IMG/VR virus record: IMGVR_UViG_3300037882_003154
Coordinates: 62,001-126,000 of that record
Source of the DNA: a virus
Direction: 5' to 3' (one strand)
DNA length: 64,000 nucleotides
Shown here one piece after another: positions 1 to 57,698 of the stretch. The stretch's first letter is position 1. Each line of letters opens with the position of its first letter. The notes under the pieces are model-generated. The model was not told where the DNA came from. It did not search any database and worked only from the letters and a program-made list of their open reading frames with translations. Both the position numbers and the translations under genes were made by a program.

Positions 1-430
1 GGTCTTCAAAATGGAATTCTTCTTCTTTTACCGGATGGTCATAGGGCGGATATCCGGTAGTGCTAGATAGATAAACAAACGCTTTGACTTGTGCTTTATG
101 GGCGGCAGCCAAGAGGTTGTAATTCATCTTGATATTTGGACCAACAAGATTAAGGATGTTTTCAGCCTGTGCTCCAGCACCATAGCTCTTGCCAGCACAA
201 TGGAATACATAGTCTATTCCTCTACAGATGTAATCTACATCATAGTTTACTTCAAGATTTGCTCTCATTAAAGAATATGGCTTCAAATCCCCATCATATT
301 CTTTGGGTATGGTATTATTAAACACTGCATAAACTCTAGCATTTTCTTTAATAAGTCTTTGCACGAAGTTAGAACCGATCATACCAGCAGAGCCAGTAAC
401 CAAGCATTTTGTGTTTTTGAAAATACTCAT
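1..430 (-). CDS. NAD-dependent epimerase/dehydratase (SDR), N-terminal part
   Basis: Only the first 143 residues lie in the window; the rest continues past the left edge. The translation from the ATG at 430 starts with a Rossmann nucleotide-binding motif (VTGSAGMIGS), followed by an acidic beta-strand end and a DYVFHCAG segment. These are hallmarks of extended short-chain dehydrogenases acting on nucleotide sugars. The ATG overlaps the TAA of the upstream SDR gene by one base (TAATG), so the two are translationally coupled. It probably makes or interconverts a nucleotide-sugar for the glycosyltransferases in this cluster. The catalytic YxxxK is outside the window, so the exact reaction cannot be assigned. 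Confidence 0.85.
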   Translation of the reverse strand, partial: MSIFKNTKCLVTGSAGMIGSNFVQRLIKENARVYAVFNNTIPKEYDGDLKPYSLMRANLEVNYDVDYICRGIDYVFHCAGKSYGAGAQAENILNLVGPNIKMNYNLLAAAHKAQVKAFVYLSSTTGYPPYDHPVKEEEFHFED

Positions 431-1383: not shown

Positions 1384-1384
1384 C

Positions 1385-2956: not shown

Positions 2957-3927
2957 AATAGATCTTTCATCCTGGTAATATAAGAGTGTTTTTCTATAAA
3001 GTCTTTATGAACCTGTTCTTTGAGAATTAAATCAGAAGAATGGCTGATTTTTTCATCCAAAGGCATATCTATATCGGAAACTAGGGCGTCATATCCGATT
3101 AAAAGTTCACTTTCAAATAAATCATAAATAGCACTATTGACTTCGGTTACTGGAACCCTGCCAGCCCCAAGTATTTTGAATATTCTCTCATTAATTTCAA
3201 AATCGTATTCTGCATATGGGTGCAATATATTCAGATTAACTTTAGATGATACAAAAAGGTCTAACAAATTATTATCATTAATATATCCACAATAACATGG
3301 CAAAGACCATTCTTTATCACCAAATATCTTTATATTATAGTTTTTATGATACTCTTTAAATATCTCGAATATCTTATTCAACTTAACCATTTTGTTGGGA
3401 TGATATCCACCTACATAAGATATGTCACACTCATAGTTTTTATTGAAAGTGGCTTTAGTATATGTTAAGGAGTCAAAGGCTAGTGGACAACTCAATACTA
3501 CGAACCCCTTTGTATTCCACCCAGAGTGTGTGCCGATTATGTCTGTTCCCATATTTTTAGATACTAAGAACAGTGGATTTTTAAGTTCATCCTTACATCT
3601 ATTCAGATTTTTTTTCTGATTATCGGTAGCCAATAAGTATGTGTGTTCTGGTTTTATTCTTAGATCTGTTATATTATCATCTATATATAATCCGGGCTCG
3701 GTTACGATTATTATATGTGGGCTATTAAGCAAACACTTAAATACCGCCTTTGTTAGATGATCTGGATCGACAATCAATATGTCTGGTTTAAATTCATCAA
3801 ACATGTCAAATGCCGGTTTTTGTTCTTCTGACCAAAACACAACATTATGACCAAAATATAATAGGGCTTTATACCATCCAGATCTGTGCCCTGGAATTCC
3901 GCCCCTAAATGTCATTAGTATCTTCAT
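2938..3927 (-). CDS. CgeB-like glycosyltransferase
   Basis: 329 aa. The fold cues are those of GT-B glycosyltransferases of the CgeB / DUF3880 type: an N-terminal Rossmann half (MKILMTFRGG; DILIVDPDHL), then DISYVGGYHPNK, and near residue 250 the donor-binding segment INERIFKILGAGRVPVTE, equivalent to the NxRxFE...CGG stretch in CgeB proteins. It overlaps both neighbours (19 bp and 4 bp), so it is part of one operon. Predicted to transfer a sugar onto a phage or host glycan. Donor and acceptor are unknown. Confidence 0.7.
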   Translation of the reverse strand: MKILMTFRGGIPGHRSGWYKALLYFGHNVVFWSEEQKPAFDMFDEFKPDILIVDPDHLTKAVFKCLLNSPHIIIVTEPGLYIDDNITDLRIKPEHTYLLATDNQKKNLNRCKDELKNPLFLVSKNMGTDIIGTHSGWNTKGFVVLSCPLAFDSLTYTKATFNKNYECDISYVGGYHPNKMVKLNKIFEIFKEYHKNYNIKIFGDKEWSLPCYCGYINDNNLLDLFVSSKVNLNILHPYAEYDFEINERIFKILGAGRVPVTEVNSAIYDLFESELLIGYDALVSDIDMPLDEKISHSSDLILKEQVHKDFIEKHSYITRMKDLLCQIDK

Positions 3928-4682
3928 ATTTTTTCTAAGTCTTTAATACCATCTATTTCTAGTACAAACCCATGATTATTTTTTTTTGTTATAAGCTTTC
4001 CACCATTATCAATAATATAGTTGAGAGCCTCAAACATACAGGACGTTCTATTTTCTTTATTATATACATACTTTCTCAGATTATAAAGCTCTGCGCCCGT
4101 GAAAAACCCAACCTGTCCCCATTTTTTGACAAGATTATATGCGAACAAAGTGGCTAGGTTGTCATCATATGAATTAAGCCCTATTTCTTGTGGTCTAAAA
4201 TGATCCGTGTCATAGATTATATTAGATGTTTGGGCATACAGATCAGAGATATATTCATTATTGAATAACAGATCGCCCATGATTAGAATAACACATGGGT
4301 TTAGAGATACCCTCAAACACATAGCCAGCGTTCTGACTTGACTGGTACTCTCATATTCCATATTTTCGACAAACATTATGTTCTGTGGTAGAGAGTCAAT
4401 TACTTTATCAGCCTGAAATCCCAGCCCATATATGATATTGGCATTTGGATAGCATTCTCTGATGATTCTGACTTGCCTTTGACCTAGCTTTTCATTTTTA
4501 ATATCTAATAAAGACCTAGGACCACAATTGGTCATTTTGCCAGCACCAGCAGCCAATACAATAATGTCAAGGTTATTGTTTGGATTGACCGACCACTTTC
4601 TTTTTATTACAGAGGTAAACCTATTGAGTTTTGCCACCCTGCCTCGCGTTTGCTTTGTTGATAATGTGCTGCAACACAGCAT
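3924..4682 (-). CDS. Sugar-phosphate nucleotidyltransferase-like
   Basis: 252 aa. Near residue 40 it has the nucleotidyltransferase signature IVLAAGAGKM...PRSLLDI (family LAAGxGxR...PKxLL), then NMEYESTSQVRTL and MGDLLFNN, where the Asp fits the metal-binding position. The family activates sugars or choline by forming NDP- or CMP-linked donors (LicC/GlmU-N type). The ATG at 4682 overlaps the upstream glycosyltransferase by 62 bp; a GTG at 4637 would reduce this to 17 bp and fits this genome's style, so the true start is uncertain. Role: making an activated donor for the cluster. Confidence 0.75.
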   Translation of the reverse strand: MLCCSTLSTKQTRGRVAKLNRFTSVIKRKWSVNPNNNLDIIVLAAGAGKMTNCGPRSLLDIKNEKLGQRQVRIIRECYPNANIIYGLGFQADKVIDSLPQNIMFVENMEYESTSQVRTLAMCLRVSLNPCVILIMGDLLFNNEYISDLYAQTSNIIYDTDHFRPQEIGLNSYDDNLATLFAYNLVKKWGQVGFFTGAELYNLRKYVYNKENRTSCMFEALNYIIDNGGKLITKKNNHGFVLEIDGIKDLEKI

Positions 4683-5409
4683 TTGGGTTGTGTTGTGGCT
4701 TTTGCAAAATACCAGTATTTTTTATGGAAATCTTACATAGCGTCTCTGGAATGTGTATCAAGATAGATTGTTCGGCAGCTCTCAATAACAGATCATAGTT
4801 TTCAAACATTGGGAGACCAGTATCGAAGATCCCTATCTTATTTAATATCATAGAACTAATAAAAAACGACACATGCCCATAATATGTATTATATATGTTG
4901 TGTATATTAAAGGACCTTAGATATTGTTCAAATTCAACCCCACCAATATTTATGATATGATCTGAATATACAGCCCCAATCACACTTGGATTGTCTATAA
5001 ATTCTATAACACTCTTGCTGACTTTGCCATCTAGATAGATATCATCGGCATCCAAAAAGCCAAAAATGTTGGCTATTGAGCTCAATGATTGTATGCCTAT
5101 GTTTTTTGCATAGCATTGGCTACTATGCTTGTGCAGTCGAACTCCGTTGACGTGTACATTGTTCTTAATGCCAGCGAACACTTCGTTTTGGCTATCGTCC
5201 ATATGTGATTCATAGTCTTTAACATAGCCCTTTATATTATCCCAACTACTATCCTCGGAGCAGTCATCAACTACCATGATATATTTGTTGGGATAGTCCT
5301 GAGACACGGCACTGTCTATGGCATTCAGAACACTGTCCGCCATATTATAGTTGGGTACTATTATTCCAACTGCTGGCAAGTTTATGTTTTTTGTAGTATC
5401 TGCGCCCAT
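4621..5409 (-). CDS. GT2-family (GT-A) glycosyltransferase
   Basis: 262 aa. Canonical GT2 features: VGIIVPNYNMADSVLNAI at residues 14-31, the MVVDDCSEDSSWD nucleotide-binding strand, and FGFLDADDIY, in which DADD is the DxD metal site. The family transfers sugars from UDP-, GDP- or dTDP-donors. It has 28 bp overlap with the upstream gene and 62 bp with the downstream one, which points to coupled translation. Part of the surface-glycan cluster; specificity cannot be read from sequence. Confidence 0.9.
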   Translation of the reverse strand: MGADTTKNINLPAVGIIVPNYNMADSVLNAIDSAVSQDYPNKYIMVVDDCSEDSSWDNIKGYVKDYESHMDDSQNEVFAGIKNNVHVNGVRLHKHSSQCYAKNIGIQSLSSIANIFGFLDADDIYLDGKVSKSVIEFIDNPSVIGAVYSDHIINIGGVEFEQYLRSFNIHNIYNTYYGHVSFFISSMILNKIGIFDTGLPMFENYDLLLRAAEQSILIHIPETLCKISIKNTGILQKPQHNPNAVLQHIINKANARQGGKTQ

Positions 5410-6260
5410 GTTCTTGTGTATCCTGTTCCTATATCATTATCTAATATCTTTTTAAGGTGAGAAACTATTGTGTCTTCTTTAGACTGCATATAAAACCAAC
5501 TATGCAGGCTTTTATTGACAACCAAACCATGATTTCCATCTTTAGGAAATATAGCCAATAACTGCACCATCTCTTTGTTTACTATATCGTTTATGTGTTC
5601 AATGAAATCTTGGTGTACTAGATTATCATCAACAAACCACACATAATATTGGCTAGATTTTAGGGATTTGTGCTTAACCATCCTTTGTATACTTCGATCG
5701 GTGGTCTCATCTTCAACAAGAGACTCTAATATCCAGGGTATATTTTCAAGATTCATGCCCTTTAGTTTCATCAATATTGATGACACATCACACTTAGTAA
5801 TTATGACAATGGATTGTGGTTTAATATAAGGTGTTGTTCGTCCTTGATAGATAATATTATCAAGAGCCCTCTCTATTTTAGATGGGTCAGATAGTTCTAG
5901 GATAGCAGACCACCTTATATTTGTAGCATCCCTTACTAGCTCATATTTGTCTTTGTCCTGATTAGCTAGAGCCCAGTCTTTATCCCTAAACCATTTGCAA
6001 TGCCTGTTTATTTTGAAACTTAAGGTTTCTTGAACAAAGTCTACTGTGGCTCCTGCTCTAATGAAATCATCTAGCTTGCCCAAATAACAGCCGGTTTGTA
6101 GTTTTGGGTCAATGTCTATTTGTTTGAATATACAATCTTCACAAAAAGCTTGTATGTGCCAATTACTTTTCCACTCTTCAGCCGAATCTAATATTAATTT
6201 GTGGGCATCTTGCTTATATATATCTTCTGGGTGTTTGTGTACAATAATTTCTTCGGGCAT
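5382..6260 (-). CDS. Unknown protein with Cys-rich N-terminus, glycan cluster
   Basis: 292 aa, family not recognised. Residues about 40-90 contain CEDCIF, then a Cys in TGCYLG and a Cys in RHCKWF, a four-Cys pattern that could hold zinc or an Fe-S cluster. The C-terminal half alternates strands and helices (SIVIITKCD; YYVWFVDDNL; MVQLLAIF) in a way compatible with a GT-A-like fold, with VDDN at the position where a DxD would sit. I infer an accessory glycosyltransferase from this and from the flanking genes, but that is weak. Confidence 0.6.
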   Translation of the reverse strand: MPEEIIVHKHPEDIYKQDAHKLILDSAEEWKSNWHIQAFCEDCIFKQIDIDPKLQTGCYLGKLDDFIRAGATVDFVQETLSFKINRHCKWFRDKDWALANQDKDKYELVRDATNIRWSAILELSDPSKIERALDNIIYQGRTTPYIKPQSIVIITKCDVSSILMKLKGMNLENIPWILESLVEDETTDRSIQRMVKHKSLKSSQYYVWFVDDNLVHQDFIEHINDIVNKEMVQLLAIFPKDGNHGLVVNKSLHSWFYMQSKEDTIVSHLKKILDNDIGTGYTRTWAQILQKT

Positions 6261-6273
6261 GATTATGGTCTTT

Positions 6274-6750
6274 TTAGTGTCTCTGTGAAACTACGATATA
6301 AGTGTCATCGAGCATAATGGGTTCTATGATTTTGAGCCCCTTAGATTGTAAAAAACCACAAATGTCAGTGATACAAGAGCTGTTCTTGCGGAAGTTGATG
6401 GGATTTGTTTGGTCTCCACGAAGCAATACATTTCCTTGTTGCACGGTGATTTTGTGTTGATATATTTTCCTACAAATATTATATAGGTCAACCCCACCAA
6501 CTTTTAGTATGCCACCATGACGCAACTTTTTAATCCAATTGTTGAGGGCTTTTTCTATCTGTGGCTGTGACATATAGTCTATTATATCTAGGGCTCTTAT
6601 CTCTGTAGCTTCGGCGTCTTCACAAATAGTGTCAAGGTTAATAAAATCCGAAAATGTAGTCTTGACCCCACCAACTACCACTGGAAACATAGATAGGTTG
6701 TGGTAGTCTGAAGAGAAATTTGCTTCGTTACGAATAAGGTTGATTTTCAT
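6274..6750 (-). CDS. SAM-dependent methyltransferase-like protein
   Basis: 158 aa from the ATG at 6750, which follows the upstream stop by five bases; a longer frame to 6831 would overlap the upstream gene. It resembles the C-terminal half of class I methyltransferases: EIRALDIIDYMSQPQIEKAL followed by WIKKLRHGGILKVGG, like the HxLEH...ALxEWxRVLKPGG region of type-11 enzymes. The N-terminal SAM-binding GxGxG motif is missing and replaced by a short strand. It may be a degenerate or compact methyltransferase common in phage glycan clusters. Confidence 0.6.
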   Translation of the reverse strand: MKINLIRNEANFSSDYHNLSMFPVVVGGVKTTFSDFINLDTICEDAEATEIRALDIIDYMSQPQIEKALNNWIKKLRHGGILKVGGVDLYNICRKIYQHKITVQQGNVLLRGDQTNPINFRKNSSCITDICGFLQSKGLKIIEPIMLDDTYIVVSQRH

Positions 6751-6755
6751 ATTAA

Positions 6756-7781
6756 TTAGCCTGTATATACCGTGTTCGCTGCTTGATAGAATAATTTGTT
6801 CCAAGTTTCTAGATATTGTTCTAGACCACATTTACTTATAACTGTTTCTCTAGCCCTTTTGCCCATTTCATCACACAGCTTCGGGCTGTCTAGCAATTGC
6901 TTGAGCCTTCTTCGCATTGTACTTTCATCATTGGTTACAAATGCATCATATTCGTCTGTAAAAAATTCTGGAATAGCACAAGTTGCTGTGGTTACTATAC
7001 CAGCCCCACAAGCTGCCGCTTCTAACAATGCACAAGGGATTGGTGAAATTAACGATGTATTAACAAATACTTGGCAGGCTCTATAGTGATTAACAAGTTC
7101 ATCTAATGATTTTGCCGCCTCAGAAAGACCGGGAGTAGCCCCCATTGGTTTAACTGGAAGACCTTGGGTTATTCTCTTCCAAAGATTGAATCCGCAAGGC
7201 TGATCCCTATTTATCCAATCATTAACAACAGCCCCAATGGTCTTGATTTTTGGGATGTTTTCGTCTGGGCAAAATAGTTCTGTGTCTACAGTATGTGGTA
7301 TAACTATAGAATTTGATTCGTCCCACCCCCATTGTTTTCTACTCCAGTCTGTGATAAAAACATTTATATCACCACTAAATGATCTTAGTTGTTGCCTCAT
7401 TATTGGAGACCAAGTATCGTATGGGGCTGTGTGTTCAGCTTGTATAATGTTTAAATGATATATTTTTTGTAGCTGCTTAAAAAACTGATATTGACCAAAT
7501 CTATTTTCTGACAATATAAGGTCAAAGCCTACATCTTTGGGTATTTGGTCGTTACCAAGATTTCTGTCTAGAAGTACAAAGTTGGCTGGTAGTGGGGCAT
7601 ACTCAGAATTCCATCCCTTGAAATTTTCTGTTTGTACCAAATAGAAATTGTGACCAGTCTTAGCATATTGACTCTGAACCCTTTCATGGACCGGACTACA
7701 GAGCACATTTAATTTATCCTTAGGTTTTCTAGTAGCCTGCCGTAATACCGATCTCATGCCATTAATTTGCATTGGTAGCAT
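6756..7781 (-). CDS. GT4-family (GT-B) glycosyltransferase
   Basis: 341 aa. The C-terminal Rossmann half carries the retaining GT-B signature: VFVNTSLISPIPCALLEAAACGAGIVTTATCAIPEF, followed by a typical RLKQLLDSPKLCDEMGKRARE helix. The acceptor half (residues 25-180) is less conserved. Starts: ATG at 7781 (20 bp overlap with the upstream gene) or ATG at 7757 just after its stop; the second gives 333 aa and is equally plausible. Transfers a sugar in the surface-glycan pathway; specificity unknown. Confidence 0.88.
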   Translation of the reverse strand: MLPMQINGMRSVLRQATRKPKDKLNVLCSPVHERVQSQYAKTGHNFYLVQTENFKGWNSEYAPLPANFVLLDRNLGNDQIPKDVGFDLILSENRFGQYQFFKQLQKIYHLNIIQAEHTAPYDTWSPIMRQQLRSFSGDINVFITDWSRKQWGWDESNSIVIPHTVDTELFCPDENIPKIKTIGAVVNDWINRDQPCGFNLWKRITQGLPVKPMGATPGLSEAAKSLDELVNHYRACQVFVNTSLISPIPCALLEAAACGAGIVTTATCAIPEFFTDEYDAFVTNDESTMRRRLKQLLDSPKLCDEMGKRARETVISKCGLEQYLETWNKLFYQAANTVYTG

Positions 7782-8913
7782 CCTCTAATAAGAGATTCTT
7801 AATGCGTTCACCAACAACCTTCTTATTAAACTTCTCAAATATATTCTTGACACATCTTTCTGTCTTTTGTTCTCTTAGCTTTTTGTTCTCAAAAGCCTCT
7901 CTCATGGCTCTACGCAAGGCACCAACACTAACCTCATACCAATTTTCATCAGCCCTATACATATCAGGAAGTTCTACATTTATAGCCCCAAAGCATGGTT
8001 CTGAACTACCAGCAACAAGCCAAGCTGTATCGTCATTTAAATAATCCATCATACCACCACATTTACTAGCGATAATTGCCTTGCCCATTGCTGCTGATTC
8101 AGCACATGGTATGCACCACCCCTCTCCTCTAGAAGCATTAACAAAGCAATCACAGGCATTATACAAAGAATACAGGGTTTCATCATCTAATTTATCGGTA
8201 ACGATGTATTCTCTATGATATCCACCTGCTGATTGATATAGTTTTAAACCATCTTTAACTTGATTACAATAATCCGCACATCTTTTTGCAGTTTCTTGCA
8301 CAGAGACGCCAGGAATATTCACCTTAAATAAGAGCCCCACCCTTTCTTGTGGATGAAACTCAGAATGAAAAGCCTTAACAATAGCCCCTAGGTTCTTCCT
8401 TCTGTTAAATTCGCCCACAAAATAAAACATAAACATACCATCTGCCCCAATTGGTAGTTTATTATATGATCTTTGAAACTTTTCGGTATCTATGGCATGA
8501 CCAACATAATACACTGGTTTATGTATTTGTTGATTGTGATGGTGTTTTTCTGTTAGAATCTGGTATTGAAAACTGTTAGTAGCCCAAATCTCATCCATTA
8601 GATTAAGATGGGTATGCCAATTCGGTCCATGAACACTGTCTGTCTCAGACTCGAACATTGCTATATTTTTCTTAAAGCCACCATGATATTGCATAAAATG
8701 GGGCAAAGTATATTGGATTACTACATCACAATCACTACTATTCCTCTGTTCTAGTTCAAGGATCCTTTCCGGTAATTTTGATGAAGCATCATTAAACCTA
8801 ACAGGTCTAATTACCAAATCAATACCAACAGAATCCATAGCCTCTATGTAGGATAAGGCTGCTGATGAATAGCCGGTTCCATCTCTGTAATTAGATATAA
8901 AGAGGACTTTCAT
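7762..8913 (-). CDS. GT4-family (GT-B) glycosyltransferase
   Basis: 383 aa. Clear GT-B C-terminal motif FVNASRGEGWCIPCAESAAMGKAIIASKCGG, in which the second Glu is the usual nucleotide-sugar contact; the N-terminus KVLFISNYRDGTGYSSAALSYI is the acceptor-side glycine loop. I place the start at the ATG at 8913, two bases after the upstream stop, rather than the TTG at 8922. It is one of at least four GT-B enzymes in the first 11 kb. Confidence 0.9.
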   Translation of the reverse strand: MKVLFISNYRDGTGYSSAALSYIEAMDSVGIDLVIRPVRFNDASSKLPERILELEQRNSSDCDVVIQYTLPHFMQYHGGFKKNIAMFESETDSVHGPNWHTHLNLMDEIWATNSFQYQILTEKHHHNQQIHKPVYYVGHAIDTEKFQRSYNKLPIGADGMFMFYFVGEFNRRKNLGAIVKAFHSEFHPQERVGLLFKVNIPGVSVQETAKRCADYCNQVKDGLKLYQSAGGYHREYIVTDKLDDETLYSLYNACDCFVNASRGEGWCIPCAESAAMGKAIIASKCGGMMDYLNDDTAWLVAGSSEPCFGAINVELPDMYRADENWYEVSVGALRRAMREAFENKKLREQKTERCVKNIFEKFNKKVVGERIKNLLLEDATNAN

Positions 8914-8914
8914 A

Positions 8915-9121
8915 TTACTCAAAATTAACCGCCCTTGGATCTATCTCTCTGATTACCCTATTATTTCTTTCGTTTTCAAGCTGTAGTCTAATTATGTCAT
9001 TCTTTGCTTTCAGATCAAAAATCTGTTTGGACAAAAAAGTAATTAAACATGTCTGTAGTATAAAACACAAAGAAATAACAATCACTTGGACTTTAAACAT
9101 CCCACAGTTCACCCCGTTCAT
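8915..9121 (-). CDS. Small membrane protein with coiled coil
   Basis: 68 aa from the ATG at 9121, after the stop of the upstream gene (9138). One hydrophobic segment at about residues 9-30 (VQVIVISLCFILQTCLITFL) is followed by a charged heptad-like helix. This is a single-pass protein, perhaps type II, with a short coiled coil. Function unknown. A spanin or membrane anchor is possible, but the location inside a glycosyltransferase operon does not favour it. Confidence 0.6.
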   Translation of the reverse strand: MNGVNCGMFKVQVIVISLCFILQTCLITFLSKQIFDLKAKNDIIRLQLENERNNRVIREIDPRAVNFE

Positions 9122-9137
9122 TATTGGTGTTCGTTGC

Positions 9138-10877
9138 TTATGTTCCACACAAAAACTCCTTATGATTTTCAATATTACTATCTGGTTTAGCATGAGTAAT
9201 ATAATAGGGCTTTTCTCTATTCTCTATACCACATCTTACCTTTTCCCAATTATTGATATTATTTCTCATATCAAATAACTGTTGCAACATATTATTAAGC
9301 TGGAAAGGCTCTGGTGTTGGACGAATTCCCACCATCGAAAAATCATTAATATACATATTGCCGCCATTAACTATTTTGCCACCATATGTAAGGCTCTTAA
9401 CAAGATTAAGCGCAAAATATGTATTGAGCTTTTCTGGCATTCCCAGGACATTCACAATAGCCCAATCAACCATCTGAGACATGGATATATTAGATGGATA
9501 TGTTGTGACAGGATTGTGTAATTTTGGTGGTGATTTCCAGGTTAATCTCCAATCAATGGGCTCCACACTATCAAAATATGCCATCCATTTTTTCGTTGTC
9601 TCTTCCCAATTAAAATGTTTCTCAACACACTTTCTGGTATCAAATCCACGCTTTTTTCTTAATGACTCCGGCAATGAGAAAAATTTGATGAGTATATCTA
9701 CTATTGAATCTGGGTCTGGCTTAGCCCTATGTGTATGTGTTGTTACATCTCTTGATTTAGACAAAAGCTCTATTGGATATGCCTTGCATTTATTTATAAA
9801 GTCAATAGTACCAGAATAGTTAGTAACAGCCAGTGGTATGCCACACGAAGCCGCTTCTACACAAGGGATGCCAAACCCCTCTGAAGAAACTGGCTGAACA
9901 TATAAGTCCATCAAATTATATATAACGCCTAGCTGTTCAGGACTAATGCCATGTTGTGTATTAGGCAACGTGGCTCCTGGCTGACCACAGTGAGGACAGA
10001 ACACCCTACTATCAGCCCATAATTCCACAAATATATTGTGGCAATTTCTGCACAAATAGGTAAATAATACCTTGTGCATTATATTTTCTTCTTGTAGAAT
10101 TAGTGGTAGGTTCCACCCAAGATCTGGATAAGAAGTATGACAATATAGATAGGTTCTTTGCCCCAAATCTTTATTGCTTTTTTCACAATAATCAAGGAAT
10201 TTTCTAAAAGCCTGAAATAGGTCGGGAAACAGTTTGCGAGCCTGGTTTCGCATCACAGTTCCAACAATATTGATATTTTTACCAAACCCAAATTTTGCTT
10301 TGAGACCCTGTTTATCAAGTATTGGATTAAAGGTCTTAAAATCACCACCTGGAGGATTGGCTGATAATATTTTGAGAGACCCGCCGGTTTGGTTTTCTAG
10401 TAGACACTTAGCCCATTCAGTATATGTAAAGAGACAGTCCGCCTCCATCATTTGACCTATCCAGTCGGTGGCTTGTGGCTCACCATCGACGGTTGGCATA
10501 TAGGCTATTTTATAGAGTGGTCTAAATGGAGAAGAAAACAGATGGGTGCAATACCAAGAATCGCTGATATCAAATACTATATCTGGTTTAAAGTCAAGTA
10601 CAACATCTTCATATCTCCATCCACCAAATTGTGCAAATCCATCTGCATTGTGTTGTGCTATACCGGCTTGGTCATTGGGTTCAGGTGCATTAGGATAGAC
10701 TCGCCAAGGTATAGAATAAGTTCTTTGGTCTGCCAGTGTACAGTATGAGGCGTGTTCCGCAATACAAAATTTATTGGTAGCATAGAGCCTATCCAATAGA
10801 TTTTTGTAATACACAGCATAACCACTAGACAAAAAAGTAGCTTCGCTTCTAGCCAACAGCCTTAATTTTCTAGTCAC
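9138..10877 (-). CDS. GT-B glycosyltransferase with inserted zinc ribbon
   Basis: 579 aa from a GTG at 10877 (8 bp overlap with the sigma-factor gene). The N-terminal half fits a GT-B acceptor domain and the C-terminal half has SSEGFGIPCVEAASCGIPLA (residues 331-350). Between them, residues 276-297 form a Cys4 zinc ribbon (CRNCH...FCPHCG; Cys276, 279, 294, 297) lying directly before the GT-B donor motif. After residue 440 there is a further ~140 residue extension of unknown role. Zinc-ribbon insertion in a GT-B enzyme is unusual and may bind an acceptor or partner protein. Confidence 0.85.
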   Translation of the reverse strand: MTRKLRLLARSEATFLSSGYAVYYKNLLDRLYATNKFCIAEHASYCTLADQRTYSIPWRVYPNAPEPNDQAGIAQHNADGFAQFGGWRYEDVVLDFKPDIVFDISDSWYCTHLFSSPFRPLYKIAYMPTVDGEPQATDWIGQMMEADCLFTYTEWAKCLLENQTGGSLKILSANPPGGDFKTFNPILDKQGLKAKFGFGKNINIVGTVMRNQARKLFPDLFQAFRKFLDYCEKSNKDLGQRTYLYCHTSYPDLGWNLPLILQEENIMHKVLFTYLCRNCHNIFVELWADSRVFCPHCGQPGATLPNTQHGISPEQLGVIYNLMDLYVQPVSSEGFGIPCVEAASCGIPLAVTNYSGTIDFINKCKAYPIELLSKSRDVTTHTHRAKPDPDSIVDILIKFFSLPESLRKKRGFDTRKCVEKHFNWEETTKKWMAYFDSVEPIDWRLTWKSPPKLHNPVTTYPSNISMSQMVDWAIVNVLGMPEKLNTYFALNLVKSLTYGGKIVNGGNMYINDFSMVGIRPTPEPFQLNNMLQQLFDMRNNINNWEKVRCGIENREKPYYITHAKPDSNIENHKEFLCGT

Positions 10878-38384: not shown

Positions 38385-38606
38385 CTATGCTGACTTTTCC
38401 ATGATATTAGTGAACATCTTCTTGTAGTTTCTTATAACACAATCACAATAGTCTAATTGTGTTTGTGGTTCACCATATTTAGAATAATCAATAGGGGCTG
38501 GTTGAATCATTCTATAGCCCCGCCCATGACATTTTCTACATGTAGCTTTGGCATATGCATTGGCTTTGCCTAGCATATCATTAATTTGACTATTTTCCAC
38601 TTGCAT
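38385..38606 (-). CDS. Small zinc-finger-like protein
   Basis: 73 aa. Contains ATCRKCHGRGYRMIQ (CxxCxGxG, DnaJ-like half finger) and a second Cys pair in LDYCDCVIRNY. Could bind one zinc. TAATG overlap with the upstream gene and directly abutting the next one. Function unknown. Confidence 0.65.
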   Translation of the reverse strand: MQVENSQINDMLGKANAYAKATCRKCHGRGYRMIQPAPIDYSKYGEPQTQLDYCDCVIRNYKKMFTNIMEKSA

Positions 38607-38971
38607 TAGCCAGCATCATCCAATAGTGATTGGATTTCCTCTGGTGTGCTATTAGCTGCAACACTCAATACAGCATTCACAAGCCCACTTGCATTTTTAG
38701 CAAAAGCCCTTGGGGACATATCGCCATTATCTACAAGACTTCTGCGTAGATTAAGCCTCACACCTATTCTTTGGATTAGTGTTGGATTAGCAGCATCGGC
38801 TGCAACAGTAGCCGAGTCAGCCTTGCACTTTTGTAGGGCTTGGATCAAAGGAACTAGAGCCTCTGCAATTAAGATAATAATTGAGGGATCAAATGCGAAT
38901 TCTTTATCGCTTGGATGGTTGCTTTGTAGTTTAGCAACAACTTTTTCAGCAAATGCTTGTACTTGGTTCAT
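38606..38971 (-). CDS. Unknown helical protein
   Basis: 121 aa, predominantly helical with short hydrophobic segments (SIIILIAEALVPLIQALQKC), Ala-rich. Not recognised. No signal peptide. It precedes or follows the exported-protein module, but no link is visible in its sequence. Confidence 0.6.
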   Translation of the reverse strand: MNQVQAFAEKVVAKLQSNHPSDKEFAFDPSIIILIAEALVPLIQALQKCKADSATVAADAANPTLIQRIGVRLNLRRSLVDNGDMSPRAFAKNASGLVNAVLSVAANSTPEEIQSLLDDAG

Positions 38972-38994: not shown

Positions 38995-39387
38995 TTAGTG
39001 GTGTGAAACTCTTAGGGTACGAATATTGCGTTGTTTTACCACCACTCTTTGTACATTTCGTACCCGAACACTTTGGAAGAGATTCTGTACAGAATTTCGT
39101 AGATTTTGTAGCAATGGTTCTCGTACTACAACCTTTTGGACTACTTGTCTTTGAACATGTCGAACTTCTTGAACTACAAACTGTGGAGCCAAAGCTAGCT
39201 TACGCACAACATTAAATCGCACAGTGTTGAAATGTGGTGATAATACCACTCTCTGCACAACAAAATTGTCATGTGATACACATAGGTTTCTTACGCGTTC
39301 AATGCGTAGATTATCGCAAGATTTTACCACAGACCCAAAGGATAAAAATGAGGCGACCAAGGCACCAATCAAAAAACGTCTAATCAT
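38995..39387 (-). CDS. Secreted Val/Gln/Arg-rich protein
   Basis: 130 aa. N-terminal signal peptide (MIRRFLIGALVASFLSFGSVV) and then a low-complexity body dominated by Val, Arg and Gln in VQ/VV/VR repeats (VRHVQRQVVQKVVV...VRNVQRVVVKQR). Good ribosome site AAGGGG. Such VV-Q/R-rich exported proteins occur in planctomycetes, from memory, which hints at the host. It shares the short segment CVSHDNFVV with the cytochrome-like protein downstream (FVSHNDFIF). Confidence 0.7.
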   Translation of the reverse strand: MIRRFLIGALVASFLSFGSVVKSCDNLRIERVRNLCVSHDNFVVQRVVLSPHFNTVRFNVVRKLALAPQFVVQEVRHVQRQVVQKVVVREPLLQNLRNSVQNLFQSVRVRNVQRVVVKQRNIRTLRVSHH

Positions 39388-39423
39388 AGCATTCCCCTTT
39401 TCTCTTATAGTTACTTTGTATGC

Positions 39424-40050
39424 TTACTTTAGCTTAGCCCAATCTTTCAATATAATTACATCTTCATCTGACAAAGGATCCCCACCCTTTGGCATTTTTT
39501 GTTCAAAAGCCTGAATAAAAATATCAAACTTTTGTTCTCGATTCAGTTGAGACAGCTTGTTATCTTTAATGATCTCAAGTCCACCATTTATTGTATCCCC
39601 CGAATGGCATTTTGCACAGTTCTTTTTTAATATTTCAAGGGATTTTAATTTTAATTTATCTGTTGGTGTTTCTGGGCTGGCTGGCTCTACTGGTTCAGTA
39701 TCATCTGGTGATGGATTATCTACTGGTGGTGGAGCATCTGGTTTTGTTGGCAAGGATAGTTTAGAAATCAGTTTGGCGACTATTTTCTCTGATAATTTTT
39801 CTAAATCATCGTCATCAATAGATAGTTCTGCTGAATCTTTAACCCTATAATAATATTCGAGCCCAAGGTCTGTTACTGGTACCTCAAATATAAAATCATT
39901 GTGTGATACAAATCGTCTATCAAAATTCCTACTAATGAACCTAACATTGCTCCGAGCTATGTTGAGCCCAATGTCACACTGATTGTCACCAGCATTAGCA
40001 AAGTTACAAGCGAACGATAAGATTGTGGCTAAGAATATTTTTTTAAACAT
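39424..40050 (-). CDS. Exported c-type cytochrome-like protein
   Basis: 208 aa. Signal peptide MFKKIFLATILSFACNFANA (cleavage after Ala20). Residues 21-100 form an unidentified domain, then a Pro/Asp-rich linker (100-130). The C-terminal 75 residues are a cytochrome c domain with heme motif CAKCH (145-149) and a candidate axial Met186 in KMPKGG. The domain end, LSDEDVIILKDW, is the usual cytochrome c helix. It would bind one heme covalently after export by the host Ccm/Ccs system. Phage-encoded c-type cytochromes are rarely described. Strong AGGGGG ribosome site. Confidence 0.85.
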   Translation of the reverse strand: MFKKIFLATILSFACNFANAGDNQCDIGLNIARSNVRFISRNFDRRFVSHNDFIFEVPVTDLGLEYYYRVKDSAELSIDDDDLEKLSEKIVAKLISKLSLPTKPDAPPPVDNPSPDDTEPVEPASPETPTDKLKLKSLEILKKNCAKCHSGDTINGGLEIIKDNKLSQLNREQKFDIFIQAFEQKMPKGGDPLSDEDVIILKDWAKLK

Positions 40051-40063
40051 TGAATGCCCCCTG

Positions 40064-41713
40064 CTACTTGTTTATCCAATCAAAGTCTTGTTCTTTAATT
40101 GTAATCTTGAGACCATTGGCTACAAAAACATAGAGACCCTCAGAATTCTTATTTGGGCTCTCTAAGGTAATTATATCACCGATTTGTAGTTCTGCAATTA
40201 CACTTTCTTGTTTTGTAATCTTAAGATGTTTTTTAATCCTAACTGATAGTGGATTGACATCTTGTGTTTCTGTCTTGGATGTTGGTGGAGCCCTTTCTAT
40301 TCTATGTATTAGCAACATAGCTTGAGCAAATATGCCACTATCTAGATCTTCCCACACATCTCTATTTATTGATTTTTCTGTTTTTACTAGAGCCCCAAGT
40401 CTACCACTAATAGTTGGTGTACATTTGGTCTTAAAATCATCAACAGACAGCCCACATTCATATGCGGCATGAGAGATAGATAGAGATCTTTCATACCACT
40501 TAAGGATCTCTTGGTATAGTTTGGCATTCTCTAAACCACTTAGCCCATTAATAGACTGTACAGCCCCATTAAATATCTCTTTATCAGCCGCAAACAACTT
40601 GCCCATAGGGCTCAGATAGAACCTTTCTACAGCAATTTGATATTCTTTGTTATATGTTAACAACTCTACACCAGATTTTAAATGTTCGCTTAGAGCATTG
40701 ATGGGAATATTGATAGCGTCTGCATGGCATATAACACAAGATCTAGCGGTTCTAACCCGTATATCTTTAGTGTCCGTTCTATCCCAAACCACCGTTGGAT
40801 CACCAAATTCGACACGTTTATTCTTACCATCATATAGAAAATACACCTGGAGACCTAGTTTGTTGGTAGTAAACGTCTCACCTGCATCTCTGTCATTACG
40901 AGATAAGCCGGTTGGGTCTAGATTTTCGATATAGTCTTGGGCTCCTTCCGATGTTTTAACATCTGAAGTTTCGTAATAATAACCGAGCTCTGTTCTTGTT
41001 CTTGATATTTGTCTATTATTCCTAGACACCCCAGACGACCCTTTGTCTACTAATATCCCTTTTTCTATAGCCAGTCCCTCTATTTTCTTAACATCTACAC
41101 CCCAGGCAGCCCTAAACTCTTCTAGTGTTTTTGGCACACCGGTTTTAGCATATAGTAATTCATAGTATAGTGGTGGCAATTCCCTATCAACTTGTTTTGT
41201 TACATCACTAGTATGAATGATAAACCAATCGGCTCTTACTATTGCATTTCCAGCCAGAGCCCTTAGTAATTCATAATTTTGATATTTTATCCAAGGCTCT
41301 CTAAAATATGGCTCATGTATACTGACTTTTTCCCAGGCTTCTGGGGTCCAGCCGTAATCTCGTATATCAATCCACCAGAGATCATTGTCGCCCTCTACTT
41401 TTCTAGCCTTTTGTACAATATTCTCATAGCTTAAACTATGCATCCAAAAGTTAAGAGTTTTAATTATACCATCTTTAACTTTTATATTTTCTTGTCTATT
41501 AATATTTTCATTAGTGATAACAATAGTATCTTCTACTGGAATATTGTACACAGAAAAAAATCTGATGTAAGGTCGCAAATCTGTCGATATAGTAACTAGA
41601 AATTCACTTGCAGCCTCAACTTCTGATTGTGGGCTGTTTATTTTGGCTTCTTGCCCAATAGAAATTCCAGTGAGGCAAAAAACAATTGCCAAACTAAAGA
41701 TGAGCCTAAACAC
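40064..41713 (-). CDS. Large exported protein with heme-c motif
   Basis: 549 aa from a GTG at 41713 with AAAAAGG upstream; the start is supported by the signal peptide that follows (MFRLIFSLAIVFCLTGISIGQ). One CxxCH at 326-330 (SCVICHAD). The N-terminal half has DLRPYIRFFSVYNIPVED, LNFWMHSLSY and LWWIDIRDYGWTPEAWE, segments I associate with a planctomycete family of exported cytochrome-like proteins. The downstream gene (39424) is another cytochrome-like protein, so the two may form an electron-transfer or heme-binding pair. Confidence 0.8.
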   Translation of the reverse strand: MFRLIFSLAIVFCLTGISIGQEAKINSPQSEVEAASEFLVTISTDLRPYIRFFSVYNIPVEDTIVITNENINRQENIKVKDGIIKTLNFWMHSLSYENIVQKARKVEGDNDLWWIDIRDYGWTPEAWEKVSIHEPYFREPWIKYQNYELLRALAGNAIVRADWFIIHTSDVTKQVDRELPPLYYELLYAKTGVPKTLEEFRAAWGVDVKKIEGLAIEKGILVDKGSSGVSRNNRQISRTRTELGYYYETSDVKTSEGAQDYIENLDPTGLSRNDRDAGETFTTNKLGLQVYFLYDGKNKRVEFGDPTVVWDRTDTKDIRVRTARSCVICHADAINIPINALSEHLKSGVELLTYNKEYQIAVERFYLSPMGKLFAADKEIFNGAVQSINGLSGLENAKLYQEILKWYERSLSISHAAYECGLSVDDFKTKCTPTISGRLGALVKTEKSINRDVWEDLDSGIFAQAMLLIHRIERAPPTSKTETQDVNPLSVRIKKHLKITKQESVIAELQIGDIITLESPNKNSEGLYVFVANGLKITIKEQDFDWINK

Positions 41714-41726
41714 ATTGAGCCTTTTT

Positions 41727-42638
41727 CTAGATTTTCACTACCCTATATCCAGGGATTGTAATAGATTCCACTGAACCGACTATCTTTATTATAGTCTCAT
41801 GGGATGGATTTGGTGTGGGGTTTGGGGTTGGTGGGGTTGGAGTTGGGGTTGGGGTTGGTGGCGGATTGATCGGTGGCACATTTTGTGGTTGACCATATAA
41901 TCTCTGGAGCCTTGGTATATCATCATTTTCCTGTGGCTTATCTACATTGGGATTATAGTATGGTGCTAGAAGTGCCGATTGTATTTTGGAATGGTTTAAT
42001 CCAAGATTATGACCAACCTCATGGCAATGAACGTTCCTGAGCAATATGCCCCTCTTGTTCTTGTTATCAATCCATGTCTCAGCCAAATCTAATGTTAGCG
42101 TTAGTTTGCCAGTAAAGCTAGGTGAATTGGGCAAATATGCATAAGCTAATACGTTCCCAGGAGTACCAAGCTCTTCACTAGCAGCCCTACTAGTTAAGAT
42201 CACAAGATTTGCATTATCAGAAAAAACCTCTCTAAATTTAATGCCACAAACAGCAGATATAGAGTCATAAGACCGTCTATATATGTCCCTCTGTTCTTGT
42301 TTTGTTAATCCATCAACCCATTCAGCAATATAATAGCTCAGTTCTTTAAGAGCCCATTTATTAACAGATGTAGCAGGTGTATTAGGACCTCTGCGCCAGA
42401 AAAACTCAGGAACATCTGGGTGGGCGCATCTAGGATAGTTCATAGCCCTAAATGTCTTGAGACCGACACCATTTTCAACTATATTGGCATTATATTGAAA
42501 TTCTTTAATAGCCAAAGACACTTCGTCATCCGTGGCATCATCTGGTAATCTATAGTAGTGTTTCAGATATGATAGAACATATAATAGATTGTCTTTGGCT
42601 TTGGTTAGATCAGCCTCTAAAAAGTGTTCTAGTCCCAC
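41727..42638 (-). CDS. Matrixin-type (M10) metalloprotease with cysteine switch
   Basis: 303 aa from a GTG at 42638. Residues 15-65 resemble a peptidoglycan-binding-1/MMP propeptide helix bundle. PRCAHPD at 69-75 matches the MMP cysteine-switch PRCGxPD, which keeps the zymogen inactive. The catalytic domain has HEVGHNLGLNH (206-216), with Glu207 as base. The Met-turn position appears to be Leu (SALLAPYY). A Pro/Thr-rich tail (residues 255-280) and a short C-terminal strand follow. No signal peptide is evident. It could degrade host envelope proteins during lysis or entry. Confidence 0.82.
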   Translation of the reverse strand: MGLEHFLEADLTKAKDNLLYVLSYLKHYYRLPDDATDDEVSLAIKEFQYNANIVENGVGLKTFRAMNYPRCAHPDVPEFFWRRGPNTPATSVNKWALKELSYYIAEWVDGLTKQEQRDIYRRSYDSISAVCGIKFREVFSDNANLVILTSRAASEELGTPGNVLAYAYLPNSPSFTGKLTLTLDLAETWIDNKNKRGILLRNVHCHEVGHNLGLNHSKIQSALLAPYYNPNVDKPQENDDIPRLQRLYGQPQNVPPINPPPTPTPTPTPPTPNPTPNPSHETIIKIVGSVESITIPGYRVVKI

Positions 42639-42647
42639 AATTACCGC

Positions 42648-42911
42648 CTACGGATTAGAAAACAGCTGCTTAAAAAACATAAACATCAGTGTTATAAATG
42701 GGGCTATTAGACCAGCTAAAAATCCCACAACACCAGCCTTAACCTTCAAGCCGTTTATATCTAAGGCTATCGGTTGTAATTTTGCTTCTAGGTCTCTGAA
42801 TCTAGTGTCTAGCTTCACGTCTAGATTCGAGAATCTTTCCGCCAGATCTTCAAGTGCATTCAGGACGAACTTTTTGTTCTCAACCCAATCGCCGTTTTCA
42901 ATATTTGGCAT
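42648..42911 (-). CDS. Holin-like membrane protein with coiled coil
   Basis: 87 aa. Residues 10-50 form an amphipathic coiled coil, followed by one hydrophobic segment (VVGFLAGLIAPFITLMFMFF) near the C-terminus. This shape recalls XhlA-type or other holin/endolysin-partner proteins. It lies ten bases upstream of the matrixin gene, suggesting the pair could form a lysis unit. A virion anchor is the alternative. Confidence 0.6.
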   Translation of the reverse strand: MPNIENGDWVENKKFVLNALEDLAERFSNLDVKLDTRFRDLEAKLQPIALDINGLKVKAGVVGFLAGLIAPFITLMFMFFKQLFSNP

Positions 42912-49147: not shown

Positions 49148-49450
49148 CTAAAGTGTTACTATCTCATTGTGGAATGTTTCTTGAACATTCTGTTCAATAA
49201 CAAAGTGGGCTATTCTAATCAAAACCTCTATTGGCACCCCATTTATTTGCTTGGGGACTCCCCTAAGTTGGTGGACAAACTGGTTGGGAAATTTAATCGT
49301 ACAGGGCTTTAGTTCATCAGTTGTAATAATTGGCTGATATTTTACTGTAATATCACCAACAAACTGTCTTTGGTTGTCAACATCCCACTGTATTTGGGCT
49401 ACTTCTCTAATACTAGCAAACCTGGCTTGTCTTTTACTAGGTTCTGACAT
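49148..49450 (-). CDS. Unknown protein
   Basis: 100 aa, with regular strands and an amphipathic C-terminal helix (VPIEVLIRIAHFVIEQNVQETF). Not recognised. Overlaps the protease gene by 14 bp. Confidence 0.6.
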   Translation of the reverse strand: MSEPSKRQARFASIREVAQIQWDVDNQRQFVGDITVKYQPIITTDELKPCTIKFPNQFVHQLRGVPKQINGVPIEVLIRIAHFVIEQNVQETFHNEIVTL

Positions 49451-50333
49451 TCAGTATTTCTGCAAGCTTTTTCTTATTATAATTGAACAGAAAAGGAAAT
49501 TCCTTGGTTGCACTCTCATCTGGTAGATAATTAGCCCCAGTATCATCTACGACCATTTTAGCACGCTTGTTTTTGTCTGGAACACCAACAGATGGGTCTA
49601 TGAGCCATTCCACATCATGTTTCTTACACCACTTCTTAATCCTGGTCATCGGTACGGTTAAATTAAACATTTCACCAGCACCACGAACCAACATACCAGT
49701 ATATTTGCCGTCTGTGGTAAAAACACCACCACCCGACGATCCTGGGAAAGCCCCAACAGCCACCTGACAATATGGCTTATTATCAATGAGTCTACCATTT
49801 TGGCTAACAATACCCTTGGTCAATGAATTGTGACCATCGAGCCCCAAGAAAGACCCTACGTGGTATAGGTCCGTACCAATAACCGGGTCCGAATCTGATA
49901 GATTAAACTCTACTGTTCCTTGTATTAAATTGCTCTTATATACCTCTAGTATGGCAATATCATCGCCAGTTAAATGATCACTAAATTTAATGATCTTGGC
50001 ATCAAAGAACATCTGACCAACCCTACGTCCATCTTCTTGTATTTCCTTGACTATTTTTGCATCATTAAACTCTACACGATCAACAACAATGCCGGTGGTC
50101 GAATCTACACCCTTATTGGTATATCTAAGGCTTCTGACAACATGTCCTGCGGTTAGAATAAATTGTCGATTAGTCCCATCTACATTACGGGTTACAACAA
50201 CCCCGGAGCCAGAACCAGCACTAGTTACCACCGTCACACTAACATTCTGTAGACCACTAATTACAGTGTCTTGGGCTATTGCTGTTGATACGAATAGCAT
50301 AAGTGAAAACATGATGCTTACAATACTTTTCAT
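49437..50333 (-). CDS. Secreted trypsin-like serine protease
   Basis: 298 aa from the ATG at 50333, which has AAAGGA eight bases upstream; a longer frame to 50360 is less likely. Signal peptide MKSIVSIMFSLMLFVSTAIAQ. The S1 triad is visible: His in ILTAGHVV, Asp in TGDDIAILEV and Ser in GAFPGSSGGGVF. No PDZ domain follows. It should be exported to the host periplasm or surface, an uncommon feature for a phage protein outside lysis. Substrate unknown. Confidence 0.88.
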   Translation of the reverse strand: MKSIVSIMFSLMLFVSTAIAQDTVISGLQNVSVTVVTSAGSGSGVVVTRNVDGTNRQFILTAGHVVRSLRYTNKGVDSTTGIVVDRVEFNDAKIVKEIQEDGRRVGQMFFDAKIIKFSDHLTGDDIAILEVYKSNLIQGTVEFNLSDSDPVIGTDLYHVGSFLGLDGHNSLTKGIVSQNGRLIDNKPYCQVAVGAFPGSSGGGVFTTDGKYTGMLVRGAGEMFNLTVPMTRIKKWCKKHDVEWLIDPSVGVPDKNKRAKMVVDDTGANYLPDESATKEFPFLFNYNKKKLAEILNVRT

Positions 50334-50346
50334 TTTAAATCCTTTC

Positions 50347-51186
50347 TTAGAGAAATACATTAACCAAATTACAATAAAATTGCTCTGGGTCTATACACTG
50401 TAGACCTGACATTTGACCATCATTAACTTCTACTAGAATCCAATCATCTGAATCTTCTTTTTGGGCTATATCCAAAACAAAAAATGGCACATGCTCACTA
50501 ATTATATTCGCTATTTTATTGACAAAATCAAGACCCGCTGCGGTCATCTGAGCCCTATTTATTGTATCCTCTTCGGCGATTTCCCAATAGTATCCATAGT
50601 CTATAATTTTATTTTTATAAAAGAAAAATCGCCATTCATTAGAAAATCTCATGCCACCCACACCAACTTCTAGTGTTTTCAGTGGTACAAACTCTCTAAA
50701 TATGACACCCTGTTGGGCTATATTGTCATCAGACATTAACTCCGAGGCAATTAAAAGGGCTTCTTTTCTATCACGGGCAAACATCTTTGTAGCCCATTGG
50801 TTCTTTTTGGAGTTTGTCTTGCCTTTAACAACAAATGGACCATCGTGGTCACATTGGCTCAGGTCATGGAACCAAGTTTGTGGTGTGTGCTCTATAACAT
50901 CATTGTACCATAAAAAGTCTGCTATATATTTGTGTTGTTTTGGGCTGTTTATTAACTCGTGTCTGAAAAACCCCAGATCATAATTCACTTCCTGGTAATA
51001 TGGAAGCACAGAATATCTGCCTAAAACACCTTGATATCTGGTGGTAGTGATCGCAATATTTAACTTAGGAAAATCTAGCTGGCAGCGAGAGGTTATACAA
51101 TCAAAATATTTGCTGGCAATGTTAAATTCTTCCTCATTCCATTTATTTTTACGAAAAAGAATTTTTGGGAAGATATGATTTAACAT
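50347..51186 (-). CDS. ATP-grasp-fold protein (DUF4343-like)
   Basis: 279 aa. Ligand-binding segments FVVKGKTNSKKNQWATKMFA, VIFREFVPLKTLEVG, NEWRFFFYKNKIIDYGYYW and WILVEVNDGQMSGL follow the ATP-grasp order (Lys, Glu-type loop, metal-binding Glu/Asn near the C-terminus). The family joins carboxylates to amines using ATP. A peptide or amino-acid ligation role is possible. It sits directly upstream of the secreted protease. Confidence 0.7.
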   Translation of the reverse strand: MLNHIFPKILFRKNKWNEEEFNIASKYFDCITSRCQLDFPKLNIAITTTRYQGVLGRYSVLPYYQEVNYDLGFFRHELINSPKQHKYIADFLWYNDVIEHTPQTWFHDLSQCDHDGPFVVKGKTNSKKNQWATKMFARDRKEALLIASELMSDDNIAQQGVIFREFVPLKTLEVGVGGMRFSNEWRFFFYKNKIIDYGYYWEIAEEDTINRAQMTAAGLDFVNKIANIISEHVPFFVLDIAQKEDSDDWILVEVNDGQMSGLQCIDPEQFYCNLVNVFL

Positions 51187-56624: not shown

Positions 56625-57698
56625 TTATATTACGGTACCGGTAAACCCAGGATCAACCAGAACATTTCTAAATCCCAGAGCTTGTGCTATATCAGCCCTA
56701 AGATCTGGGTCTTTTGGCAGTATCTTTAGGTATTTGGTGATTTCCTCCATTCCATATTCAAGTGAGTGTTGTGGAAAAAGGTAGGGTGATATCTTTTGTG
56801 AAGACACAACATAATTTCTTTGGTCTGGGTCCTTGTCATTTGATATGTTTACTGGTATGCCACCTAGGTACATAGAAATTTTAGTTACTAGTTCAAGCTT
56901 AGAACAATTGATTGAATCATTACCCAAATTATAGACTTCATTAGTTGGTATGGGCGACATTGTATATAAATGTGCAAAGCTATTCCTTTCGTCTCTAGTG
57001 AGCAATGATGCAAAGACCACGGCTACATCTTGAACATGGATAAAATTTCTCTTGGCATCTGGCTCAAATATGTTGATTTCATTATTAAAGTAACCCCTGT
57101 ACACTAGGTCATTGACTAAAAGATCGAACCTCATTCTTGGGGCGATCCCAAATAATGTTGCCAATCTAAATATCACCCAGTTTTTGGCATTTTTAATAAT
57201 TGTTTCTTCGGCTTTTAATTTTGTTTCACCATATGAAGATAGGGGTTTGAGTGGGGTTTCTTCCGTACACACCCCATCTGTATTACCATATCCACTGTTC
57301 GTATTAGGATATACTATTAGTGGTGGATTTGGTAAATCTGATAGACCCTTTACCAACCAATCTATGGTTTCAAAATTAACTCTATTGACAAATTCCGTGC
57401 CATAAATACTATCATAGACATTACAGACGGGCATACCAACAAGAGCATGTAATAAACAGACCGTACATGGATACCCATTGGTTTGTTTGGCTTCATTGAT
57501 TATTTCTTGACACGACTCAGGAGAAAAAATATCTAGCCTTTTGACCCTAACATTGTCTCCAAAGCCAAGTGGCACATGGTATTGATCATAAGTGAATGAA
57601 TCAAACACTACTATATCATCTGAATCACCAAACCCCAATATCTCAATAAGTTTTGAACCAAGATAACCACAACCACCTGTAATAATTATTTTTCTCAT
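56625..57698 (-). CDS. NAD-dependent epimerase/dehydratase (SDR)
   Basis: 357 aa. Rossmann motif IIITGGCGYLGSKLIEIL at residues 4-21 and SSYGETKLKAEE (YxxxK) around residue 156, then RRNFIHVQDVAVVF-type substrate-side motifs. The extended SDR family acts on UDP- or GDP-sugars. It lies apart from the main sugar cluster but near an RmlC-like epimerase (61495). ATGA overlap with the upstream gene. Confidence 0.85.
   Translation of the reverse strand: MRKIIITGGCGYLGSKLIEILGFGDSDDIVVFDSFTYDQYHVPLGFGDNVRVKRLDIFSPESCQEIINEAKQTNGYPCTVCLLHALVGMPVCNVYDSIYGTEFVNRVNFETIDWLVKGLSDLPNPPLIVYPNTNSGYGNTDGVCTEETPLKPLSSYGETKLKAEETIIKNAKNWVIFRLATLFGIAPRMRFDLLVNDLVYRGYFNNEINIFEPDAKRNFIHVQDVAVVFASLLTRDERNSFAHLYTMSPIPTNEVYNLGNDSINCSKLELVTKISMYLGGIPVNISNDKDPDQRNYVVSSQKISPYLFPQHSLEYGMEEITKYLKILPKDPDLRADIAQALGFRNVLVDPGFTGTVI

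Follow-up and report, generated by a model that had tools for sequence, protein, structure and literature searches.

The stretch of viral DNA analysed here (the window: 64,000 nucleotides, positions 62001-126000 of the 133,464-base virus record IMGVR_UViG_3300037882_003154) carries an operon encoding three exported proteins, two of them with heme c motifs, next to a protease. The arrangement recurs in virus records of widely differing phages, and we tentatively regard it as a conserved, probably late, envelope-directed lysis cassette of tailed phages of Planctomycetota-type hosts, a reading to which we give somewhat less than an even chance. The four genes P4 to P1 are consecutive, with intergenic gaps of 13-36 nucleotides (nt), in upstream to downstream order:

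41727..42638, minus strand: P4, matrixin-like pro-metalloprotease (Pfam Peptidase_M10; phmmer match to MMP-1)
40064..41713, minus strand: P3, exported CVICH protein of 549 amino acids (aa), hallmark gene of the module (invariant CxxCH; new family with unmatched fold)
39424..40050, minus strand: P2, exported predicted class I c-type cytochrome (CAKCH 145-149, axial Met186; low-complexity N-terminal half)
38995..39387, minus strand: P1, exported low-complexity Val-rich protein (signal sequence, 22% Val)

An earlier note, made from the sequence alone, had described four phage-encoded genes at these positions as one operon with three consecutive signal peptides, two heme c motifs and an upstream metalloprotease with a cysteine switch. 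All of these observations hold, and its interpretation is partly supported.

A conserved block of exported CxxCH proteins and a protease

P1, P2 and P3 begin with N-terminal hydrophobic Sec-type signal sequences, recognised by a simple hydropathy scan in P2 and P3 and by inspection in P1. A signal peptide is absent from P4, whose reading frame could be extended upstream by only ~3 codons. The CxxCH motifs of the block are more than chance: four were counted in all open reading frames (ORFs) of the window against 0.18 expected from composition, and two of the four lie in the adjacent exported proteins P2 and P3.

P2 contains CAKCH at residues 145-149 and a candidate axial Met at residue 186. 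C145, C148, H149, M186 and P187 are invariant in 14/14 aligned proteins. The window protein alone scores just below the cutoff of Pfam Cytochrome_CBB3 (26 bits against 27, E=1.2e-5), and the domain is matched in 13 of the 14 family members. Searched against PDB, the family profile retrieves bc1 cytochrome c, cytochrome c6 and CcoP with a best E-value of 2e-9. By profile, P2 is a predicted class I cytochrome c, sharing with cytochrome c6, CcoP and the bc1 cytochrome c subunit the CxxCH followed after about 37 residues by a Met-Pro axial ligand. Unlike those proteins it is phage-encoded, exported, extended by a low-complexity N-terminal half and located beside P3 and a protease. The model of full-length P2 (predicted template modelling score, pTM, 0.43) places helices around the CxxCH domain, and its Foldseek matches have E-values above 1. 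Membership in the planctomycete PSCyt-type domains, proposed for checking by the earlier note, was rejected. P2 resembles PSCyt1/PSCyt2 in having a small CxxCH domain with MPP, and one cellular P3 protein does match PSCyt1. The window P2, however, does not match PSCyt1 (PF07635), only 2 of the 14 P2 proteins do so weakly, and neither PSCyt2 nor PSD1 accompanies it.

P3 represents a new family of CxxCH proteins. Its CVICH is located at residues 326-330, and C326, C329 and H330 are invariant in 21 relatives, as are Y136, D162, F164, Y183, L187, V229, R234, D251, D276 and E279. No match to P3 was found in Pfam, NCBIfam or PHROG. The AlphaFold2 model is confident (predicted local distance difference test, pLDDT, 79.8; pTM 0.79) and shows a helix at 324-329 which contains the first part of the CxxCH; Foldseek returned no usable match for this fold in PDB and BFVD. 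Neither an invariant Met nor a further invariant His that could serve as sixth ligand occurs in the 21 relatives. A profile similarity to cbb3 oxidase subunit II in the CxxCH region is weak (E=0.6) and no more than a hint. The earlier note would have been refuted if neither CxxCH sat in a heme-binding fold; this did not apply, as P2 is a cytochrome by profile. In P3 the motif is placed at a helix of a confident model whose fold is unmatched, and heme binding by P3 is likely.

P4 matches Pfam Peptidase_M10 with 86.8 bits (cutoff 24, E=1.8e-24) and contains the zinc motif HEVGHNLGLNH (HExxHxxGxxH). A phmmer match to the human matrix metalloproteinase (MMP) 1 proenzyme (4e-19) spans propeptide and catalytic domain, the cysteine switch PRCAHPD aligning with PRCGVPD of MMP-1 and MMP-3. 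The methionine of the Met-turn is absent (ALLAP where MMP-1 has ALMYP), and because of this Leu we call P4 matrixin-like. It shares the cysteine-switch propeptide and the zinc site with MMPs and karilysin (MEROPS M10). In contrast to these, it lacks a signal peptide, has Leu at the Met-turn, is part of a phage operon and can be replaced by papain-like or S8 proteases, as described below.

With 22% Val, P1 lies above 99.7% of 290 background ORFs.

The order P3-P2-P1, with all three products exported, is found in all 15 virus records containing the block (19-595 kilobases, kb), namely the window, LR756511 (595 kb) and 13 IMG/VR contigs. The contigs were found with a two-sequence alignment; scans of viral contigs with P2, P3 or P4 as single proteins gave no match, the back-translated patterns being too specific, and neither did tblastn with P2 and P4 against a phage collection. 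Downstream of P3, every record encodes a P2-type CxxCH...MP protein and, after it, exported proteins of low complexity like P1. In L024 other genes intervene, and the contig of L015 ends within P1. The low-complexity proteins downstream of P2 have position, export and low complexity in common, show no clear alignment, and in some records are Tyr- or Gln-rich, not Val-rich. A search of 99 Planctomycetota and 100 Pseudomonadota genomes with a P1 profile gave no match, a negative of little weight for sequence of such low complexity.

That misassembly or contamination has attached host genes to the phage contig, which the earlier note had considered as a refutation, is a practically negligible explanation for this block. 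It occurs in 14 other virus records, P3 is also present in a prophage, and phage P3 forms a clade separate from all cellular P3 (100/100). Moreover the GC content is even throughout P1-P4, phage-type genes flank the block on both sides, and the 133 kb record encodes a terminase and a tape-measure protein. The independent occurrence of the block thus rules this explanation out.

Upstream of P3, 10 of the 15 records and a Planctomycetota prophage encode a protease, whose class varies. M10 proteases are present in the window, L014, L016, L020 and L022, papain-like ones in L002, L012, L015 and L017 (weak Pfam support in L015 only, the others by sequence motifs) and a subtilase-like (S8) one in L013. 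Sister proteins in the P3 tree are accompanied by different classes, M10 in the window and papain-like in L012 as well as S8 in L013 and M10 in L014. Hence the position of the protease has stayed fixed through more than one exchange of its class. None of the recognised proteases carries a signal peptide.

Since P1 and the N-terminal half of P2 are both of low complexity and rich in Val, Tyr and Gln, as expected of structural surface proteins, and since three proteins are exported, the block could also serve surface remodelling or superinfection exclusion: P1-P3 would coat or alter the host surface, the protease would trim surface proteins and other phages would be blocked. We consider this very doubtful, as it leaves both the invariant heme-ligand residues and the leaderless protease unexplained.

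Cellular relatives of P3

Cellular P3 occurs in Rhodobacteraceae, Neorhizobium, Planctomycetota, Verrucomicrobiota, Nannocystis and a Poribacterium. All 42 cellular homologues fall into one clade apart from phage P3 (support 100/100), and phage P3 appears from this tree to be a single old lineage, not a product of repeated host gene pick-up. The complete cellular proteins all have a CxxCH domain fused N-terminally, nearly all of which are recognised by the P2 profile; the sole protein without this domain is interrupted by a contig end. A P2-like domain and P3 thus share one polypeptide in cells (a Rosetta stone arrangement), and therefore P2 and P3 should work together. They probably form one split redox unit acting near a peptidase.

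Exported Peptidase_C14 (caspase-domain) proteins are encoded near cellular P3 in 8/8 neighbourhoods tested by Pfam, which had been chosen by eye for caspase-like appearance and belong to Pseudomonadota, Planctomycetota and Verrucomicrobiota. A peptidase near a cytochrome and P3 is common to cells and phages, the class differing. The fused cytochrome-P3 gene of alphaproteobacteria lies immediately after one for a Ferric_reduct/FAD/NAD flavocytochrome (by Pfam in L027 and L035; the same ORF shape elsewhere). Cellular c-type cytochromes with a P3 domain, e.g. WP_227705619.1 of Neorhizobium, hence resemble the phage block in the P3 and P2-like domains and in the nearby peptidase gene. They differ from it by the fusion, the C14 neighbour, the flavocytochrome partner in alphaproteobacteria and their separate clade.

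The cellular loci (L025-L036, L039 and L011), with fused cytochrome c-P3 and exported C14 proteins, joined in alphaproteobacteria by the Ferric_reduct/NOX-like flavocytochrome, look like an uncharacterised redox-peptidase system. In the planctomycete genome G028 (L062/L077) the N-terminal part of a cytochrome c-P3 protein resembles a Ser/Thr protein kinase, judged from sequence.

These relatives bear on two further explanations. In one, P2-P3 would be an auxiliary metabolic module, a periplasmic electron carrier or oxidoreductase altering or sustaining host respiration or peroxide handling, with the protease maturing or recycling envelope proteins. P2 does resemble respiratory cytochromes (bc1 cytochrome c, CcoP, cytochrome c6), and the flavocytochrome next to the alphaproteobacterial fused gene indicates that the unit is probably engaged in electron transfer. 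On the other hand, no flavocytochrome was recognised in the phage, and the constant company of exported low-complexity P1 and usually of a protease is not needed for respiration. A prophage keeps protease and P3 while dropping P2, and the single old phage lineage does not resemble repeated uptake of host genes. We rate this module, and with it the altered host respiration suggested in the earlier note, as unlikely, though the likeliest of the rivals.

In the other explanation the block is the phage's counterpart of a cytochrome/caspase-type stress or death pathway in bacteria, which the split copy with its other peptidase would trigger, short-circuit or decoy. It draws on the C14 proteins of the eight neighbourhoods from three phyla, on the planctomycete P3 cytochrome apparently fused to a kinase-like region (L062), and on the fused state in cells versus the split state in phages. 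Yet few genomes of the putative hosts have cellular P3 (12 of 392 in Planctomycetota, including one prophage), several cellular loci lack a recognised caspase, the tested loci were chosen by eye, and the cellular P3-C14 pathway is itself uncharacterised. This leaves such a pathway rather improbable. With similarly low probability, planctomycete phages use a split ancient cytochrome c-P3 unit, in which the caspase is replaced by other proteases, as exit machinery. If true, this would be a bacterial and viral parallel of the eukaryotic link between cytochrome c, caspases and cell death.

The block as a putative lysis cassette

Unfused P3 of the phage clade is present in 1 of 392 Planctomycetota genomes, the prophage L101. 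Between 3.8 and 15.8 kb it encodes a small transmembrane (TM) coiled-coil protein, a small hydrophobic protein, a subtilase (E=1.2e-58), P3, a ParB-like protein, TerS, TerL, portal and capsid. The contig (134 kb) carries PSCyt1/PSCyt2/PSD1 genes further along, which links the module to Planctomycetota. The prophage P3 ends in a Val/Gln-rich tail that is P1-like by composition; BLAST of the tail against P1 was negative, and therefore the likeness is compositional only. The absence of P2 together with this tail could result from fusion of P3 to P1 or from an in-frame deletion.

In lambda, the lysis genes precede the terminase, and the protease-P3 pair of the prophage sits in the corresponding place. 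The block comes after tail- or fibre-like genes in L013, L020 and L023, as assigned by inspection of the sequence and without profile. It lies among late genes in the prophage and probably also in these three. Two small genes adjoin P4-P1 in the window, where the operon is tight, with gaps of about 9-36 nt between 42648 and 38995:

42648..42911, minus strand: small coiled-coil-like protein with C-terminal TM segment, holin/XhlA-like candidate by shape only
38606..38971, minus strand: small hydrophobic/amphipathic protein, possible cassette member by operon position

The former has no family match, and no holin family was matched among the small TM proteins nearby; the latter has no significant match in Pfam, NCBIfam and PHROG. 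TM and coiled-coil proteins similar to the 42648..42911 product are found near the block in other loci. Small hydrophobic proteins adjoin the protease or P3 in L002, L013, L015, L018, L020 and the prophage, a likeness of type and not a demonstrated homology.

Several features lead us to favour an envelope-directed lysis cassette. The recognised proteases are leaderless like canonical holin-dependent endolysins, P2-like and P3 domains are fused in cells with a peptidase link in both phages and cells, and protease and P3 of the prophage occupy the place of the lambda lysis genes. Furthermore, Pfam recognised no ordinary endolysin family in 92 other proteins of the record (known enzymes and very large proteins excluded, the record possibly being incomplete), and the walls of Planctomycetales contain Cys-rich YTV proteins (PMC8567305). 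Of the functions proposed in the earlier note, lysis of a host with a protein-rich envelope hence fits best. Similar to holin-endolysin-spanin cassettes of phages, the block combines a leaderless enzyme with small TM proteins, has swapped the enzyme class while keeping its place, and is located upstream of the terminase (prophage) or after tail-like genes. It differs in that the enzyme is a protease instead of a peptidoglycan hydrolase, and its exported cytochromes have no counterpart there.

Such a cassette might act as follows. P1-P3 would leave through Sec, after which the host would attach heme c to P2 and probably also to P3, and the two would come together as a redox unit, either in the periplasm or at the wall. 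P1 may anchor to the wall or disturb it. At the end of infection a small membrane protein would let the protease out to cut the protein-rich wall, YTV proteins being a plausible target. The P2-P3 pair may modify the wall or gate the protease, a role for the hemes which we infer.

A number of points weigh against lysis. A cytochrome is not obviously needed for it, and the proposed function is derived from sequence and gene context. P2 is missing from the prophage although P3 is present, and therefore seems dispensable; this one prophage is also the evidence for the host. The neighbours of the block in the window are nucleotide-metabolism genes and none is structural. Part of the tape measure protein is lysin-like, and the small TM proteins are holin-like candidates by shape only. 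No protease was recognised near P3 in L018 (at a contig end), L019, L021, L023 and L024. Finally, planctomycetes possess peptidoglycan (PMC4432640), and for this reason a protease might be insufficient by itself.

The module was not found in family and literature searches; no description of a phage cytochrome-protease cassette turned up in the open-licence literature, an absence which is weak evidence. A widespread phage block of exported c-type cytochromes and a P3 family of confident, unmatched fold are seemingly new elements. The block marks a phage lineage of Planctomycetota-type hosts, bacteria for which phages and lysis have received little study, and it opens direct tests of phage exit from cells with protein-rich walls.

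Further genes near the block and in the record

An exported protein of ~250 aa is encoded near the block upstream of P3 in L002, L015, L017, L019 and L024, mostly larger phages, with 31-67% identity; the L019 and L024 copies have no Pfam match. At the end of the P1-P4 operon (38385-38606, minus strand) lies a gene for a protein of 73 aa; its CRKCHGRGYR is probably not a heme c site but a zinc-binding motif of the DnaJ type. No Rfam families were detected within 36-46 kb of the window. A second exported protease with signal peptide and Trypsin_2 domain (E=1e-15) is encoded on the same strand at 49437-50360, 7 kb upstream of the matrixin.

A long series of glycosyltransferase-, epimerase- and nucleotidyltransferase-like genes, recognised from sequence at about 1-10000 and 56625-57698, extends outside the window and suggests a large set of glycan genes in this phage. 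The same record also contains genes of RNA-repair type (RNA ligase, RlaP) and two R2K ATP-grasp families.

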